Source: Lampropedia puyangensis (GTDB taxonomy: Bacteria > Pseudomonadota > Gammaproteobacteria > Burkholderiales > Burkholderiaceae_C). From it: a DNA stretch of 64,000 nt. Location of the stretch: assembly GCF_004833285.1 (NCBI RefSeq), contig NZ_STFG01000008.1, positions 62,001 to 126,000 of the forward strand, given 5' to 3'. Shown one piece after another: positions 56,224-64,000 of this stretch (position 1 is the first letter of the stretch; every line of letters starts with the position of its first letter). The notes under the pieces were generated by a model. That model was not told where the DNA came from. It worked only from the letters and a program-made list of their open reading frames with translations, and did not search any database. The translations under genes and the position numbers were made by a program.

Positions 56224-57258
56224 TCATGTGAACGGATTGGATGCCACCGGCAGCTTGGTGCCAGCAATAGCCCGCTCATGCGTTACACCGGGGCGAAAAC
56301 GAAACACCTTAGCAGGCCTGCCCGCTGAACTGGCAAACATATCCCCGGTTTCTTCAATCAAGTCCTGCTGCTCAACCAAGCGGCGGAAGTTTTGCTTATG
56401 CATCCAACGCCCTGTAATGGCTTCGGCTGTTTGCTGTAATTGCAGCAACGTAAAGTGCTCTGGCATCAGCTCAAACACCACAGGCCGGTATTTGAGTTTG
56501 GCCCGCAAACGGGCCATACCGGTGGCCAGAATTCGGCGGTGGTCAAACCACATAGACAAGCCGGGCAAAGCCTCCGGCGATGCTGGCGGCACGGCATCCG
56601 CATCACACACGTCACTGCGCTGCCCTTCGGCAATCAAGCCTGCCTCAAACAGCAACTCATAGCGTTGCAGCACCGCATCTTCACTCCACTCCTGCCCATC
56701 CAAACCAAAATGGCTGGTCACGCGGTCTCTGCGTAACTGGCGTGCAGCATCGCTTTGCGCAGCCCCAATCCACTGGCGCAAATACGGTTCAATGCGCGTT
56801 TGCAGCAAGGCATTGGCCCATTCACTGCGTCTATCTTCCCAAGGAAAAAAATCGTACCAATTGCGCCATCCAGCTTGGTCTGCAGCGGCATTCAATGAGT
56901 CTTGGCTGCTGCGCTGCTCACGCGTCAACCCTAAATAACTGATCGAAATGTGCCGTGCGCTGGGAGGTTGCCCTTGATCGCCAGCCATTTGCAGTCGTCC
57001 AGGGTCAGCAAACGTGTACAGCTGCTCTATATAGCCAATGGGATGGCGCGTTTCAGACTCCACCCATGCGCGCATACCCATTTGCAAAGAGCGGTGTGTA
57101 GTCGTGAAAGGCCCTGCGGGCAGCGACTGACCATGGCGCGTAGTCATGATGCGCGGTTGCGCATCAGTAACGGCGGCCAATACCGCCACCAACTCAGCCT
57201 GAACGGCATGCGAAGCGGCGGGCGCAGGGCTGAAAAACGGCGTTTGGTATGTGCTCAT
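56224..57258 (-). CDS. Nudix-related (NrtR-like) protein without a Nudix box
   Basis: A 344-residue protein with a Nudix-like N-terminal part (LVAVLAAVTDAQPRIMTTR, then GYIEQLYTFADPGR and HISISYLGLTRE) and a C-terminal winged-helix-like part (YRPVVFELMPEHFTLLQL, IRRLVEQQ-type FRRLVEQQDLIEETG, GRPAKVFRFRP). This is the layout of NrtR and COG4111 proteins, repressors of NAD genes. The catalytic GX5EX7REUXEEXGU box is absent, so it should sense but not hydrolyse an ADP-ribose-type ligand. A start at 57258 suits the sequence. No NAD gene is adjacent. Confidence 0.75.
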   Translation of the reverse strand: MSTYQTPFFSPAPAASHAVQAELVAVLAAVTDAQPRIMTTRHGQSLPAGPFTTTHRSLQMGMRAWVESETRHPIGYIEQLYTFADPGRLQMAGDQGQPPSARHISISYLGLTREQRSSQDSLNAAADQAGWRNWYDFFPWEDRRSEWANALLQTRIEPYLRQWIGAAQSDAARQLRRDRVTSHFGLDGQEWSEDAVLQRYELLFEAGLIAEGQRSDVCDADAVPPASPEALPGLSMWFDHRRILATGMARLRAKLKYRPVVFELMPEHFTLLQLQQTAEAITGRWMHKQNFRRLVEQQDLIEETGDMFASSAGRPAKVFRFRPGVTHERAIAGTKLPVASNPFT

Positions 57259-57330
57259 GGAATGAGGCCGCATTGTAGTGGCGGCGCGCCCAGTCTGTCT
57301 TCGGCACCCGTTTTTGCTGCAACCCTGCCG

Positions 57331-57927: not shown

Positions 57928-58887
57928 TCATTCAACACGGACATCAGACTCCTTGATGATGTTGGCCCAGTTGACAGCTTCTGCATCCAGCCATGCACCA
58001 TATTCTTGCGCCGTGTTGGGTTTGAATTCTGCATTCAAAAGACGCAACCGCTCAGTCACTTCTGGGCTGCTCAATGCCACATTGACGGCCGTGTTGATTT
58101 TCTCTACCAGCTCTGCAGGTGTGCCTGCTGGCGCAAACAAGCCCTGGGAGATGTAAGACTCGAAATCCTTCATTCCAGCCTCTTCTGCTGTCGGCACTTC
58201 TGGTGCGAAGCTGGAGCGCTTTTTGTCTGTCAAAACGATTGCCTTCAAACGTTTACTTTTGAGGTACTCCGTCACAGCAGGAAGGCCGCTGAACATCATG
58301 TCTACTTGCTCTCCCATCAGGTCTGCAAATGCTGGGCCGCTGCCGCGATAGGGAATGTGAATCAGCTCAAAATGGCCTGCTCGCTGCAAGTGCATGGCGG
58401 TCAAATGGGTACTGCTGCCATTGCCCGAAGAAGCAATCGAGAGGCGACCTGGATTGGCCTTTGCTGCAGTGATGATGTCTTGCAATGTGTTGTAGGGCGA
58501 ATTGGCAGGCACCACCAGCAGATTCGCAAAACGCGCCACATCCACCACGGGAATGAAGCTGTCTTTCTGGTAGGGCAGATTCTTGTAGAGGGACGGGTTG
58601 ATGGAATAGGCTGACGCATCTGACAACAACAACGTATTGCCGTCTGGTTTGGATTTGGCAACGTAATCTGCACCGATCACCCCGCCAGCGCCAGCACGGT
58701 TTTCAACAATTACCGTAGTCCCCAAAGCCTTGCTCAACTCAGGCGCCAACAAGCTGGCAAACAAATCTGAGCCTCCGCCTGGATTGAAAGGAACCACAAT
58801 CTTGGTCAGCACAGGCTGGGCGCTGACAGTCACGGTCCATGCGCTCAAAGCGATGGCAGCGCAGGTCTTAAGAAATGTACGCTTCAT
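57928..58887 (-). CDS. Bug/TctC-family periplasmic substrate-binding protein
   Basis: A 319-residue protein with a signal peptide (FLKTCAAIALSAWTVTVSAQ, cut near SAQ). The mature part has KIVVPFNPGGGSDLFASLLA, VIVENRAGAGGVIGADYVAK and HIPYRGSGPAFADLMGEQVD, typical of Bug proteins. Start at 58887 follows from the signal. It is downstream of the DapA-like gene on the same strand, about 150 bases away, in the acid-sugar catabolic locus, so its ligand is probably the acid sugar or a relative. No TctA/TctB genes are present. A CAATCA repeat pair precedes it. Confidence 0.87.
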   Translation of the reverse strand: MKRTFLKTCAAIALSAWTVTVSAQPVLTKIVVPFNPGGGSDLFASLLAPELSKALGTTVIVENRAGAGGVIGADYVAKSKPDGNTLLLSDASAYSINPSLYKNLPYQKDSFIPVVDVARFANLLVVPANSPYNTLQDIITAAKANPGRLSIASSGNGSSTHLTAMHLQRAGHFELIHIPYRGSGPAFADLMGEQVDMMFSGLPAVTEYLKSKRLKAIVLTDKKRSSFAPEVPTAEEAGMKDFESYISQGLFAPAGTPAELVEKINTAVNVALSSPEVTERLRLLNAEFKPNTAQEYGAWLDAEAVNWANIIKESDVRVE

Positions 58888-58971: not shown

Positions 58972-58994
58972 TGATTGCATCTCTTTATCAATCA
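58972..58994. promoter_or_regulatory. Inverted TGATTG/CAATCA repeat upstream of the Bug gene
   Basis: TGATTG (58972-58977) and CAATCA (58989-58994) form an inverted pair with an 11-base spacer, 85 bases before the Bug gene start. The same hexamer is repeated upstream of the acid-sugar kinase (63639-63831), suggesting that one regulator acts at both places. Confidence 0.55.
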
Positions 58995-59037: not shown

Positions 59038-59934
59038 TCAGTAGCGCAAGTTCAACTCAGCCAAAATGGCACTGATTTGAGCATCCTGTTGTGGGCCAAT
59101 CTGGGTTGGGTATTTGCTATCGCCTACCGGGTAACCCAACAGCCGCACCGCACGCTTGACAGCAGCAGGCGCAAAAGCAACTTTGTAGAGTTGCTCACGC
59201 AAACGCGAAACGGTTTTCTGGGCTTGCTCTGACGCCACCACATCACCTGCATGGAAATGACTCCAAACTGCCTGTACCTCGCGCGGAGCCACATTGGCCA
59301 GCCCTGACACGCAGCCAGCACATCCATCCAAAAAACCTTGGTGAATCAAATGGTCTGGGCCATTGAAAACGGAAAAATCATGGCAGTCTTTGGCAATAGC
59401 CAAAAAACCTTGCAAGCTCTCATAACTGCCTGCACTGTCTTTGATGCCAACGATGTTCGGGTGACTCGCCAGTTGCGCGGCTGTTGCAGGCTCGATCGTG
59501 TTGCCTGTTCGCGCCGGGATGTTGTAGAGGTACACAGGTACTTCCAAAGCATCCGCAATAGCACTGAAGTGGGCAACCAACTCCTGTTGAGACAGCGGCA
59601 CAAAATAAGGCGTAATCACAGCCACTGCATCGACCCCAGCAGCGGCCACGTAACGCCCAGCGCGAATGCTTTGCGTTGTAGCAATTTCCCCCACATGCCC
59701 CACGACCGGAACACGCTTGGCTGCCTGGTCCACAGCGACATCCACTACGGCACATTTTTCCGCTTCAGTCAGCGCAAAAAATTCTCCGTTTGTGCCACCA
59801 CAGAAAATGCCATTGCCGGCAATGATCTGGCGCTCAATTTGTTCGCGAAAGCCTAATTCATTGAAACCGTAGTTCTGATCCATGGGTGTTACCACTGCGG
59901 TCAACACCCCTTCAATACTGCTCTTGCTGCCCAT
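59038..59934 (-). CDS. DapA-family aldolase/lyase
   Basis: A 298-residue TIM-barrel protein of the dihydrodipicolinate synthase/N-acetylneuraminate lyase family. It has FCGGTNGEFFALTEAEK (GTNGE), VPVYLYNIPARTGN with the catalytic Tyr, and NIVGIKDSAGSYE with the Schiff-base Lys. Start at 59934 (MGSKSSIEGVL) fits homology; a start 16 codons upstream is possible. Real DapA is a housekeeping gene; here the locus suggests a 2-keto acid or keto-deoxy-sugar-acid aldolase. It is followed by the Bug gene and preceded by Fe-ADH. Confidence 0.85.
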   Translation of the reverse strand: MGSKSSIEGVLTAVVTPMDQNYGFNELGFREQIERQIIAGNGIFCGGTNGEFFALTEAEKCAVVDVAVDQAAKRVPVVGHVGEIATTQSIRAGRYVAAAGVDAVAVITPYFVPLSQQELVAHFSAIADALEVPVYLYNIPARTGNTIEPATAAQLASHPNIVGIKDSAGSYESLQGFLAIAKDCHDFSVFNGPDHLIHQGFLDGCAGCVSGLANVAPREVQAVWSHFHAGDVVASEQAQKTVSRLREQLYKVAFAPAAVKRAVRLLGYPVGDSKYPTQIGPQQDAQISAILAELNLRY

Positions 59935-59996: not shown

Positions 59997-61130
59997 TTAA
60001 AACAACTGGCGGTAAACCTGCTCAATATCCGCAGCGGTCACTGCGCCTGGCACGTTCTTGATCAGTCGCTGAACATCCAGAGCCCCTTGCACCAAGGTAG
60101 GCAAGTTGTCTGGCGCAATGCCCAACTCAGGCAAGCTGGTGGGTAAATTCAATCGCCGCACCAAAGTTTTGAAATAGTCGACTAGGGCTTGAGACTTGGC
60201 CTCATCGCTAAGGCCTGTTTGTGCGCCTGGTACCAACTCATACGCCAGGGCCAGCTTCTGCACAGCCAAAGGGCGCACAAATGCAAAGCATGGCGCCAAC
60301 AAAATGGCATTGGCCACCCCATGCGCTATGTGGTAGCGCCCACCCAAGGGATAAGACATGGCGTGCACCAAATGCGTACCGGCATGCGCAATGCACGCGC
60401 CGCCATAGTAGGAAGCCCACAGCATTTGCAATTTGGCCTGCACGTTGTGCGGTTGCTCAACTGACGCCTCAATACTGCCAAAGAGCTTTTGCATACCGAT
60501 CATGGCGTAGTTGTCACACACCGGATTGGCAATCGTGGAAGTAAAACACTCGATCAAATGGCACAAGGCATCCACCCCCGTCGAGGCAGCAATGCGTTGC
60601 GGCATAGATGTCGTCAATTCCGGCGCAAGCACGACGTAGTCGGGCAGCATCACGGGCGAGATAATACCCACCTTGGTTTGCCGCTCAGGGATGGCCAAAA
60701 TGGCATTGGGTGTCGCCTCAGAGCCTGTCCCAGCCGTTGTAGGCACCATCAACGCGGTGACGCGCTCGGTGATTTTCTCGCCAGCCAATAATGCGTCCAG
60801 CGAAGGGGACTGTGGCGCAGCCAAAGCAGACAGCAGCTTGGCCACATCCAACACGCTGCCGCCCCCAACGCCAATCACCAAGTCAACCCCATCCAGGGGG
60901 TGACTTTGCAAAATGCTGCGAACATCGGCATCGCTAGGTTCAGGCGGCACACTATCAACCACTTGCACATGTGCAATCACACGCCGCACCTGTTGCAACA
61001 ACGCCTGTACCTGCGCAATGGCCATGATGTTGCGATCGCTCACAAAAACTGCGCGCCGATGGCCTTCTAACAAATAGGCCACGTCATCGAGAACATGCGC
61101 GCCACTAAGAACCGTGCTGTGAATATGCAT
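59997..61130 (-). CDS. Iron-containing alcohol dehydrogenase
   Basis: A 377-residue group III dehydrogenase. Its NAD site contains IGVGGGSVLDVAKLLSAL and VPTTAGTGSEATPNAIL. The iron ligands lie in TGVDALCHLIECFTS, AGTHLVHAMSYPLGGRYHIAHG and nearby (one Asp and three His). Start 61130 fits; the upstream frame has no homology. In this locus it would oxidise or reduce a hydroxyl intermediate of an acid sugar, or a C2/C3 product such as glycolaldehyde or propanediol; the substrate is not determined. It is 56 bases downstream of pdxA2. Confidence 0.86.
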   Translation of the reverse strand: MHIHSTVLSGAHVLDDVAYLLEGHRRAVFVSDRNIMAIAQVQALLQQVRRVIAHVQVVDSVPPEPSDADVRSILQSHPLDGVDLVIGVGGGSVLDVAKLLSALAAPQSPSLDALLAGEKITERVTALMVPTTAGTGSEATPNAILAIPERQTKVGIISPVMLPDYVVLAPELTTSMPQRIAASTGVDALCHLIECFTSTIANPVCDNYAMIGMQKLFGSIEASVEQPHNVQAKLQMLWASYYGGACIAHAGTHLVHAMSYPLGGRYHIAHGVANAILLAPCFAFVRPLAVQKLALAYELVPGAQTGLSDEAKSQALVDYFKTLVRRLNLPTSLPELGIAPDNLPTLVQGALDVQRLIKNVPGAVTAADIEQVYRQLF

Positions 61131-61186: not shown

Positions 61187-62188
61187 TCAATGGCGACTGG
61201 CCAACTCTGCACCTTGGCGTAGGGCTTCAATCAAGCTGCGTTCATCAGCAATGCCTTTGCCTGCAATGTCAAACGCTGTGCCATGGTCTACAGAGGTGCG
61301 GATCACATCCAAACCCACAGTGATGTTGACCCCTGCCTCCAACCCCATAACCTTCACGGGCCCATGCCCTTGGTCGTGGTACATCGCCACCACCAAATCA
61401 AAGTCACCACGTCCTGCACGGAAAAACAAGGTGTCGGCAGGTAAAGGGCCTTCAATATTGAGCCCCTGCGCCCTCAAGGCTTCAATGGCAGGAACAATTT
61501 TTTCTTCTTCCTCGCCGTAGCCAAACAACCCGTTCTCCCCCGCATGCGGATTGATGCCGCACACGGCAATACGGGGGTTTTGAATCTGGGCTTTGCGCAG
61601 CGTGTTGTAGCCGCGCTCAATCGTGCGTTGCACCAAGCCTGGCTCGATTTTTCGGATGGCATCAATGATGCCGATGTGCGTGGTGACATGAATCACGCGC
61701 AAATTAGGGGCCACCAGCATCATGGAGACCTCCTCCACCCCTGTGAGATGGGCCAGCATTTCGGTATGCCCAGGGAACTTGTGCCCACCCGCATGCAAAG
61801 CCTCTTTATTCAGCGGAGCGGTGCAAATGGCACCAATGCGCCCTTGCTTGGCCAACTCCACAGCGCGCGCAATGAATTGATAGGCGCCATCACCTGCGAT
61901 GGCCGAGAGCTTGCCAAACGGTAAATCATCAGGAATCAAACGCAGGTCAATGCAATCCATCACACCGGGCACAAATTGCGCCTCATCAATTGTTTCAATG
62001 GCACGGATCTGCACGCTTTGCACCCCTAGCAAATCGCGCGCTTTGGCCAAGCGTCCCGCATCCCCAATCACCACCGCACGCGCATATCGGTACAAATCGG
62101 GATTAGCGTAACTCTTTACTATGATTTCAGGGCCGATGCCAGCTGCATCTCCCATCGTGATGCCAATAACAGGGCGTTGATCGCTCAT
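61187..62188 (-). CDS. pdxA2: PdxA2-type 4-phospho-threonate/erythronate dehydrogenase
   Basis: A 333-residue NAD-dependent dehydrogenase of the PdxA family. It starts VIGITMGDAAGIGPEIIVKS and has the metal-binding His residues in KFPGHTEMLAHL, INPHAGENGLFGYG and YHDQGHGPVKVMG, plus NITVGLDVIRTSVDHGTAFD at the end. PdxA2 enzymes act beside DUF1537 kinases in catabolism: they oxidise and decarboxylate 4-phospho-D-threonate or D-erythronate to dihydroxyacetone phosphate. The adjacent kinase gene, 15 bases upstream, strongly supports this over vitamin B6 synthesis. Confidence 0.92.
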   Translation of the reverse strand: MSDQRPVIGITMGDAAGIGPEIIVKSYANPDLYRYARAVVIGDAGRLAKARDLLGVQSVQIRAIETIDEAQFVPGVMDCIDLRLIPDDLPFGKLSAIAGDGAYQFIARAVELAKQGRIGAICTAPLNKEALHAGGHKFPGHTEMLAHLTGVEEVSMMLVAPNLRVIHVTTHIGIIDAIRKIEPGLVQRTIERGYNTLRKAQIQNPRIAVCGINPHAGENGLFGYGEEEEKIVPAIEALRAQGLNIEGPLPADTLFFRAGRGDFDLVVAMYHDQGHGPVKVMGLEAGVNITVGLDVIRTSVDHGTAFDIAGKGIADERSLIEALRQGAELASRH

Positions 62189-62203: not shown

Positions 62204-63619
62204 TTACACGTCAATGGATGCAGCATCTGCAGGCGTAGCCACCGACATGGCCCCCTGTAAATGCTGGCGAAGTGCCACATAGGCACGGCTTAAAGATTGC
62301 GCATCACCAAAAGCGCCTGCTTTGGTGATGATGAGTGGCGCGTGCGCACCTGCGCCACGCGACAACACTACGCCAGGCTCTACTTGCGCAAGCACGTTCA
62401 AACGCGCAATGCCCAACGGTTGCAATACCGCGCGGGCCGTCTCGCCGCCAGTCAACACCAAGGCAGCAACCTCTGGCATCAACCCAGCCAGCGCCTGCGC
62501 AAGCCGCCGAGCCAGCTGCGGCCCCTGAACAGGATCGCTTTGATCATCGCTGGCAATGGTGACCACAGGATCTACACCAAGCCGCACATCTTGGGCAATG
62601 GCGCACAACCAATCTGGATGCTCATGCATTGATGCAGGCTCCGGCACAACGCTCTCATGTGCACCAGACACATTGAACGCATACAGTTGCGCAGCTGTAA
62701 TGCGATGCACGGCGCAACCGCAACTGCGTTGCATGCTGTCTACCTGCGCCTTGGCCACTGCAGACATACTGCCAACAACCGTCAAAATTGCTTGCCGCAC
62801 AGTCTTCAAAGGCGCCAACCCCATCATCTCTGCAGTGGTAGACAGCGGTGGCTGTGGCTGCCCGACCTCATTATTGGGTTGGAGCGCATAACGCTGCGCC
62901 GCCAAGGCCTGCGCCAAGCCCCCTGAACCCACCCAGAAAAAATCTCTCAGCCCTTGCACAGCTTGCACTAGCACGGCCAAATGCGCATCGCTTTCGCAAT
63001 CGAACACCAGTGCATGGCATCCACGCTTCTGTGCTGCGCGCACATGGGTGCGCAGCGCCTGCACTGCTCGCGCTTGCTTGTCTGTGTATTGGCCCTCTTG
63101 CGCATCAAACCAATCCAATGCCACCCGCTCTGCCTGCAAGCCTGCTGCTTGCAGCATGGCCTGGGGCCGCGCATCACAATCTGCATGTTCAAGTTGCCAG
63201 GTGTCCGTCTCTGCCAGCGCAACACCATGTACCCAAACATGCCCTCCACGCACTAAGCGCCCCATGGCTGGAAAGGCAGGCGCGATCAGGGCAAGCCCCA
63301 ACTGCGGCTGCAGCGCGGCCACTTCCGTGGCCCAATGGCCACGCAAAGTGGAATCCATTTTTTTGAAAACAGCCCTGCCTTGGCCGTACTGGCTCAACGT
63401 GGCAAGCATAGTCTTGGCAGCCACAGCTGGGTGCAAGCGCCTGCTATCTGTATCCACCACTACCACGTCAACACCATCCGTGGCCGTTCGGGTTGGATGG
63501 GCTTGCGCCTCTGGCTGTGACAACCACAACACGCAATCCGCAGCATGCACCACAAAACTGGCTGCACAGTCTGCAGCACCAGTCAAGTCGTCAGCAATGA
63601 TGAGTGTGGGAATTGCCAT
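62204..63619 (-). CDS. Four-carbon acid sugar kinase (DUF1537 family)
   Basis: A 471-residue kinase of the OtnK/DtnK/HybK family. The N-terminal domain has LIIADDLTGAADCAASFV, VVVVDTDSRRLHP and FKKMDSTLRGHW; the C-terminal domain has ALVLTGGETARAVLQPLGI and PGVVLSRG-type ending. It phosphorylates D-threonate, D-erythronate or a relative with ATP before PdxA2 acts. It is the first gene of the leftward block kinase-pdxA2-adh-dapA-like-bug. Its upstream region has phased CAATCA repeats (63639-63831). Which C4 acid is used is not decided by sequence. Confidence 0.9.
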   Translation of the reverse strand: MAIPTLIIADDLTGAADCAASFVVHAADCVLWLSQPEAQAHPTRTATDGVDVVVVDTDSRRLHPAVAAKTMLATLSQYGQGRAVFKKMDSTLRGHWATEVAALQPQLGLALIAPAFPAMGRLVRGGHVWVHGVALAETDTWQLEHADCDARPQAMLQAAGLQAERVALDWFDAQEGQYTDKQARAVQALRTHVRAAQKRGCHALVFDCESDAHLAVLVQAVQGLRDFFWVGSGGLAQALAAQRYALQPNNEVGQPQPPLSTTAEMMGLAPLKTVRQAILTVVGSMSAVAKAQVDSMQRSCGCAVHRITAAQLYAFNVSGAHESVVPEPASMHEHPDWLCAIAQDVRLGVDPVVTIASDDQSDPVQGPQLARRLAQALAGLMPEVAALVLTGGETARAVLQPLGIARLNVLAQVEPGVVLSRGAGAHAPLIITKAGAFGDAQSLSRAYVALRQHLQGAMSVATPADAASIDV

Positions 63620-63638
63620 GTTGCCTGAATGATCAAAT

Positions 63639-63707
63639 CAATCATTTCGTTTATTTCAAGGCGATTCTATGCGTATTCCAATCAAAAATTGACTGGATCA
63701 ATCAAAA
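63639..63707. promoter_or_regulatory. Phased CAATCA repeats upstream of the acid-sugar kinase gene
   Basis: CAATCA occurs at 63639-63644, 63679-63684 and 63699-63704; the last two extend to CAATCAAAA. The intervals are 40 and 20 bases, four and two turns of the helix. They lie 20 to 85 bases before the kinase start codon, where repressors of the DeoR type bind direct repeats. Confidence 0.65.
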
Positions 63708-63810
63708 TGCGGGTTTTCCTGAGTTGGCACCTTCTGCCTGAACTTATTAGAGATAGAAGAACTAACCGACCAACACCAGATGGATGAAGAGGTGTGCAAC
63801 CATAGAATAA

Positions 63811-63831
63811 ATTTGATTGAAACAATCAAAT
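63811..63831. promoter_or_regulatory. Perfect palindrome between the regulator and kinase genes
   Basis: ATTTGATTG (63811-63819) and CAATCAAAT (63823-63831) are perfect 9-base inverted arms around AAA. The arms contain the same CAATCA repeated nearer the kinase gene. It is 35 bases past the stop codon of the DeoR-like gene. Confidence 0.7.
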
Positions 63832-63866
63832 CATGCAGAAGCAAGAGCGCATGTACTGCCGCTGCT

Positions 63867-64000
63867 TTAATGGCGCTCAGGCATGAGTACCGTGGTTTGT
63901 TTTTGCGCAAGAAATGGTTGCAGTTGCTCAGCCGTCGCCTCACTATCCGTAATCAACGTCCAGGCTCCGCGCAAAGGGCTCCAATGCGACTGGCTGCGCC
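63867..64000 (-). CDS. DeoR-like transcriptional regulator, C-terminal end only
   Basis: The right edge cuts the gene; 44 codons up to the stop at 63867-63869 are visible. The translated end includes GAWTLITDSEATAEQLQPFL and ends VLMPERH. The segment resembles the last beta strand and helix of the DeoR/GlpR ligand-binding domain (TLITD followed by a helix). DeoR family regulators commonly control sugar and sugar-acid loci and answer to phosphorylated intermediates, as expected here. The DNA-binding domain is beyond the window. The assignment rests on a short fragment. Confidence 0.65.
   Translation of the reverse strand, partial: RSQSHWSPLRGAWTLITDSEATAEQLQPFLAQKQTTVLMPERH

Follow-up and report, generated by a model that had tools for sequence, protein, structure and literature searches.

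Predicted 15-bp operators of a DeoR-family regulator beside a DUF1537-type kinase operon and the helical register of such sites in relatives

The closest described systems are known to us from excerpts of three reports. In Escherichia coli, the DeoR-family regulator YgbI binds at a single site in the ygbI-ygbJ interval, and deletion of ygbI raises expression of the ygbJK-LMN operon (excerpt of PMC8464067). Brucella VdtR, also of the DeoR family, represses a DUF1537-kinase pathway, the erythronate/threonate operon (excerpt of PMC10580937). E. coli DeoR has the operators deoO1, O2 and OE, and DNA looping has been shown for it; O1 and O2 lie about 600 bp apart, and OE about 300 bp further upstream (excerpt of PMC8053113). 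Among the matches listed in the open-licence PubMed Central literature, seen as excerpts, there was no description of the operator and regulator group reported here.

We analysed a 64,000-nucleotide stretch of DNA (the window), at the edge of which a deoR gene is partly contained. A 247-bp gap (63620-63866) separates its stop codon from the start of a DUF1537-type kinase gene. The minus strand carries deoR and the kinase, PdxA2-like, iron-containing alcohol dehydrogenase (Fe-ADH), DHDPS-like and Bug genes of the block, the kinase gene being the first after the predicted operators (Table 1). The regulator consists of an N-terminal DeoR helix-turn-helix domain (PF08220, 50 bits; cut-off 21) and a C-terminal DeoRC sensor domain (PF00455, 131 bits; cut-off 31.8), and thus belongs to the DeoR family. 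It is not a YgbI equivalog (NF040890, 74.3 bits against a cut-off of 400), and it also scored below the equivalog cut-offs for GlpR, AgaR, SrlR, UlaR and E. coli DeoR (NF041397, 154.6 of 300; NF040755, 143.6 of 260; NF007753, 136.3 of 350; NF010034, 85.1 of 244; NF007961, 60.8 of 244; the score against the E. coli DeoR cut-off is the 60.8). The sole solved relative found by profile was 7l6l, 'Deoxyribose operon repressor' (E 2e-6). The kinase likewise fell below the NCBIfam equivalog cut-offs for D-threonate kinase and 3-oxo-tetronate kinase (148.7 of 450 and 96.2 of 350). The operon is of a sugar-acid breakdown type, to which the kinase scores do not assign a precise substrate.

Table 1. Coordinates of the features in the window, with the basis of each call.
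Feature	Position	Strand	Basis or remark
deoR, 3' end	63867..64000	-	HTH_DeoR and DeoRC Pfam domains
deoR, full gene	to about window-equivalent 64637 (L002:9868-10638)	-	sequence and reading frame
DUF1537-type (SBD_N/NBD_C) acid sugar kinase-like gene	62204..63619	-	PF07005, PF17042
PdxA2-like dehydrogenase gene	61187..62188	-	PF04166; TIGR00557 above cut-off
Iron-containing alcohol dehydrogenase gene	59997..61130 (start by eye)	-	PF00465, PF25137
DHDPS-family aldolase/lyase gene	59038..59934 (start by eye)	-	PF00701
Bug/TctC substrate-binding protein gene	57928..58887	-	PF03401
Predicted operator 1, TGATTGAAACAATCA	63814..63828	.	matrix 27.8, best in window; 1 mismatch to consensus
Predicted operator 2, TGACTGGATCAATCA	63690..63704	.	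matrix 24.8, third in window
Predicted operator 3, TGATCAAATCAATCA	63630..63644	.	matrix 25.4, second in window
Lone half-site CAATCA	63679..63684	+	matrix 2.7 only
TGATTG-11 bp-CAATCA pair, not an operator by matrix	58972..58994	.	matrix 0.5

Some further features of the neighbourhood were recorded. On the same strand, upstream of deoR, a hydroxypyruvate/2-oxo-tetronate isomerase-like gene (284.5 bits; cut-off 325) lies at positions 10941-11756 of L002, an 18-kb stretch of the window's genome; it is perhaps part of the same pathway as the operon. Positions 56224-57273 of the window encode a 349-aa protein with a C-terminal NrtR-type winged-helix domain (residues 266-326), in whose first 260 residues the Pfam search found no domain. 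A scan of 63500-64000 gave no consensus sigma-70 promoter; on the gene strand, TAGAAT (63664-63669) was picked out by eye only, as a promoter guess.

A preliminary description of this DNA had read the gap as a phased array of the hexamer CAATCA, recurring upstream of the Bug gene, with the DeoR-like protein as the candidate regulator. The hexamers are where it had placed them: at 63639, 63679 and 63699, successively 40 and 20 bp apart, and at 63823 inside a perfect inverted repeat, ATTTGATTG-AAA-CAATCAAAT (63811-63831; 3-base spacer), with the inverse TGATTG at 63814. No other part of the window has the hexamer as densely packed as the gap, with its five copies (for any given segment, Poisson P is about 1e-5); the cluster is real and looks functional. 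The hexamer itself is not the unit. What is conserved beside orthologues of the edge deoR gene is a 15-bp palindrome, TGAT(T/C)GAnTC(A/G)ATCA, of which the gap contains three predicted copies, centred at 63821, 63697 and 63637; by its matrix score, the CAATCA at 63679 represents only a lone half-site. Its distance from operator 2 is 20 bp, a register that a degenerate operator would occupy, and it may act as one. The reading as an operator array is supported for the three 15-bp sites but not for the hexamer unit or the copy before the Bug gene.

The consensus was first spotted by eye in the window and in two related genomes (G022 and G150), and these three are not independent of it. A matrix was built from 47 training sites, all of them in genomes other than the window's; two sites, at 15905 in L068 and 5799 in L063, were left out of training as chance. 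It ranked the three operators highest in the window, the fourth place (41833; 16.1) lying within a long open reading frame. The maxima of 60 simulated windows averaged 9.5, with a highest value of 17.1. The genome of the window contains 29 places with at most two mismatches to the consensus; the three operators scored 24.8-27.8 and the other 26 at most 16.6 (outside the window, matrix scores are given for these places and for the 18-kb L002 stretch). By the preliminary description, an equal frequency of the hexamer elsewhere would count against the array: this applies to the bare hexamer, which is widespread, but not to the 15-bp operator, since among the 29 places the high-scoring ones lie only in the gap. 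A place with one mismatch, C67:121031, was rejected as an operator and taken as chance; it scored 8.7 and lies within a reading frame, at least 605 aa long, that by eye is TRAP-transporter-like. Autoregulation of deoR in the window's genome was rejected as well: the sites of score at least 14 in L002 are the three operators only, none of them upstream of deoR.

Conservation was examined in widening samples. Besides the window's own, 5 of the 299 same-family genomes searched carry a close DeoR orthologue (65-70% identity), and six more have a match at 34-37% identity. Palindromes resembling TGATTGAnTCAATCA were visible by eye beside two of the five close orthologues, and a scan of the fetched regions found palindromes in all five. 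With at most one mismatch, the 15-bp word occurred at eight places in the five related genomes, all at the regulator locus, at two in the window's genome (one in the gap, one within a reading frame) and at three in all in 20 genomes without a close orthologue. None of these three places was in the six genomes with 34-37% relatives. The 20 comparison genomes were hand-picked from the 299, making 26 genomes searched for the word in all.

We then turned to 36 named orthologue loci from Comamonas-like bacteria, Pandoraea, Paraburkholderia, Caballeronia, Robbsia, a few others and one Vreelandella; four of them (L033, L034, L035 and L052) seem to repeat genomes of the same-family sample. A palindrome with at most two mismatches was present in 34 of the 36 (47 matches), the single match in L068 looking like chance, and in the same loci a total of 7 matches came from 12 shuffled versions of the palindrome, one of which had been drawn twice. 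Matrix sites of score at least 14 were found in all 36, including sites in L056 and L057 that the consensus had missed and one before the kinase gene in L068.

An orthologue at E <= 1e-60 was present in 134 of 398 genomes of a sister family, in 3 of 399 of an order sample and in 8 of 399 of a second same-family sample, the latter two including the window's genome. At the thresholds used, five other sampled genomes of the same genus had no regulator match; the locus may therefore have a patchy distribution or have been transferred. From these samples 80 further regions were fetched, 78 from the sister family (77 distinct genomes hand-picked from the 134, few of genus g246, one taken twice) and 2 from the second same-family sample. 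The resulting 119 orthologue loci include the window's own, 37 loci that gave or were searched for training sites, and repeats of one genome under two names; L209, which repeats part of the L192 region, was excluded. In 118 the DeoR match is strong, forming 67 clusters at 95% DeoR identity, whereas that of L208 reaches only 39%.

Sites of score at least 14 were found in 117 of the 119 loci and sites of at least 18 in 114, with 275 sites in total and none in the reversed sequences. The held-out loci, whose DeoR sequence is absent from the first set, behaved likewise: 64 of 66 had sites (145 sites; 0 in the control). Where the seven query proteins matched by tblastn, none of the 275 sites was found; the sites stand near the kinase/PdxA2 operon or deoR, outside the operon genes. 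Two loci lacked a site of this score, L148, in which regulator and operon are present, and L202, in which the regulator is present and no operon genes lie nearby. At least two sites anywhere in the stretch were found in 99 loci and a single site in 18, indicating that several sites are not obligatory. Four or more occur in some relatives (L057, L059, L052 and L177), with spacings in L057 of, for example, 21, 27 and 21 bp. The kinase (116 loci) and PdxA2 (115) are the steady partners of the regulator; DHDPS (38), Bug (16), Fe-ADH (7) and Hyi (3) were matched in fewer.

The bare hexamer is frequent in the window (75 copies; 55 expected from shuffles), as it would be if an AT-rich hexamer had clustered by chance in a promoter region. 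We regard this explanation as negligible: the sites are conserved across genera and vanish in reversed sequence, and the shuffled-palindrome, matrix, 119-locus and held-out results rule it out. The palindromes could instead belong to another transcription factor travelling with the locus, since sequence comparison does not identify the binding protein and some loci have another regulator gene nearby, for example L018 and L019, where a LysR-like reading frame was noticed by eye. This seems very improbable. The loci were drawn by their DeoR gene and nearly all carry sites, in several gene orders; among the other six query proteins, the only ones recurring in nearly all 119 are the kinase and PdxA2, neither a regulator; and the motif SEATVRRDL of the DNA-binding domain is kept in at least 94 of the 118 orthologue sequences. 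The proposal that the DeoR-like edge gene encodes the regulator is thus strongly supported by the sites at its orthologue loci, and we consider it highly probable that the three palindromes are operators of this adjacent protein, acting as a repressor with cooperative or looping binding.

The cooperative part of this reading depends on the spacing of the sites. For the first set, the 28 clade-distinct spacings between neighbouring sites averaged a cosine of 0.58 at a period of 10.5 bp, a value reached by none of 20,000 jitters, and P was 5e-5 with the period free between 10 and 11. All pairs (40 spacings) gave 0.44, with P 0 and, with the period free, 4e-4. This test omitted one-site loci, sites more than 260 bp apart (among them those in L043 and L053), single far-off sites in L056 and L098, L061 (whose spacings are those of L060) and the overlapping site L052:12407. 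For the 41 spacings of the held-out loci, the mean of cos(2 pi d/10.5) was 0.63, again unmatched in 20,000 jitters, and 10.5 was the best period among 8-14. Nine combinations of threshold and cluster level gave 0.63-0.75 in the held-out loci, with best periods of 10.4-10.5, and 0.44-0.65 in all loci (weakest P 3e-4). Distances were also taken from the best site in the 104 loci where it scored at least 20 and had 260 bp on each side; 86 of these have a second site within 260 bp. The 57 distances had a mean cosine of 0.56, as high as which none of 400 permuted matrices of the same base make-up came. A continuous autocorrelation of the matrix scores also had 10.5 as its best period, but it was equalled by 83 of 300 permuted matrices in cosine and by 135 of 300 in amplitude, so it was set aside in favour of the discrete-site control. 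By the discrete-site tests, the predicted operators of the relatives are in helical register.

The window itself is a weak example of this phasing. Its spacings of 60, 124 and 184 bp correspond to 5.7, 11.8 and 17.5 turns, with cosines of -0.22, 0.37 and -0.99. The hexamer distances of 40 and 20 bp in the preliminary description amount to 3.8 and 1.9 turns if the half-site at 63679 is counted as a degenerate operator, and in relatives operators 20-23 bp apart recur. The word 'phased' suits the relatives, where spacings cluster at multiples of 10.5 bp, and fits the window only loosely. The claim of a looping or cooperative repressor gains in the same indirect way: the spacings of the relatives follow the helix, which points to cooperative or looping repression.

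Alternatively, the DeoR protein might bind each operator independently, the phasing reflecting a shared helix face relative to RNA polymerase. Promoter elements likewise impose helix faces, and the loci with a single site and the loose phasing of the window are in keeping with this. We consider it unlikely, though it deserves more weight than the other alternatives, because phasing, seen across many arrangements, persists between distances of 2 turns and well beyond 100 bp, for which contact or looping is the simpler account; E. coli DeoR, moreover, loops (excerpt of PMC8053113).

DeoR-family proteins bind as dimers or larger oligomers. In the cooperative or looping mechanism that we propose, dimers would bind each palindrome, and neighbouring dimers would join into tetramers or larger forms through a small loop or side-by-side contact. 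The bound regulator would block transcription of kinase-pdxA2-adh-DHDPS-Bug. By analogy with known systems we infer that a sugar acid or its phosphorylated product, as substrate or product of the kinase pathway, would lift the repression. Activation of the operon from the same sites appears quite improbable. It would suit operators 1 and 2, which lie about 195 (195-209) and 70 bp upstream of the kinase start codon, operator 1 within the inverted repeat, and an L-fucose operon activator stands among the DeoR-family relatives in the NCBIfam list. Operator 3, however, lies only 10 bases from the start codon, which fits repression better, and VdtR and YgbI, which are functional parallels, act as repressors of their operons (excerpts of PMC10580937 and PMC8464067).

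The recurrence before the Bug gene was not upheld. TGATTG (58972-58977) and CAATCA (58989-58994) do exist there, but with an 11-base instead of a 3-base spacer and a matrix score at background, and the pair was rejected as another operator. The window has two inverted TGATTG/CAATCA pairs with a spacer of up to 20, against 0.195 expected; the 3-base-spacer pair is part of the conserved operator and, by matrix score, the other is not. L035 and L036 have Bug genes of 66-70% identity; upstream of each there is a single TGATTG, lying at the preceding gene's end, and by eye no CAATCA accompanies it. In some relatives (L033, L034, L052 and L018), operators adjoin a Bug-family gene; membership of the transporter protein in the regulon therefore does not require the 58972-58994 pair.

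With these results, a DeoR-family group without prior characterization gains a predicted operator sequence and a target operon, and the spacing statistics offer naturally occurring data with which to test whether DeoR-family proteins repress cooperatively or by looping. Chances seem about even that this regulator clade keeps its operators in helical register while their number, distance (2 to about 20 turns) and gene order drift; if so, natural variation traces the loop lengths that a DeoR-type oligomer can close.

Compared with the described systems, the locus resembles that of YgbI, as excerpted, in that a DeoR-family regulator stands beside a DUF1537 kinase operon. It differs in gene content, and the E. 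coli ygbI-ygbJ region lacks the 15-bp palindrome (best matrix score -2.7). By description, VdtR is a further parallel, a DeoR-family regulator of a DUF1537-kinase pathway (excerpt of PMC10580937). With E. coli DeoR, in the excerpted account, the regulator shares its family and the presence of several operators, here three predicted ones in the window; the regulon is different, and the spacings examined here are 15-260 bp.
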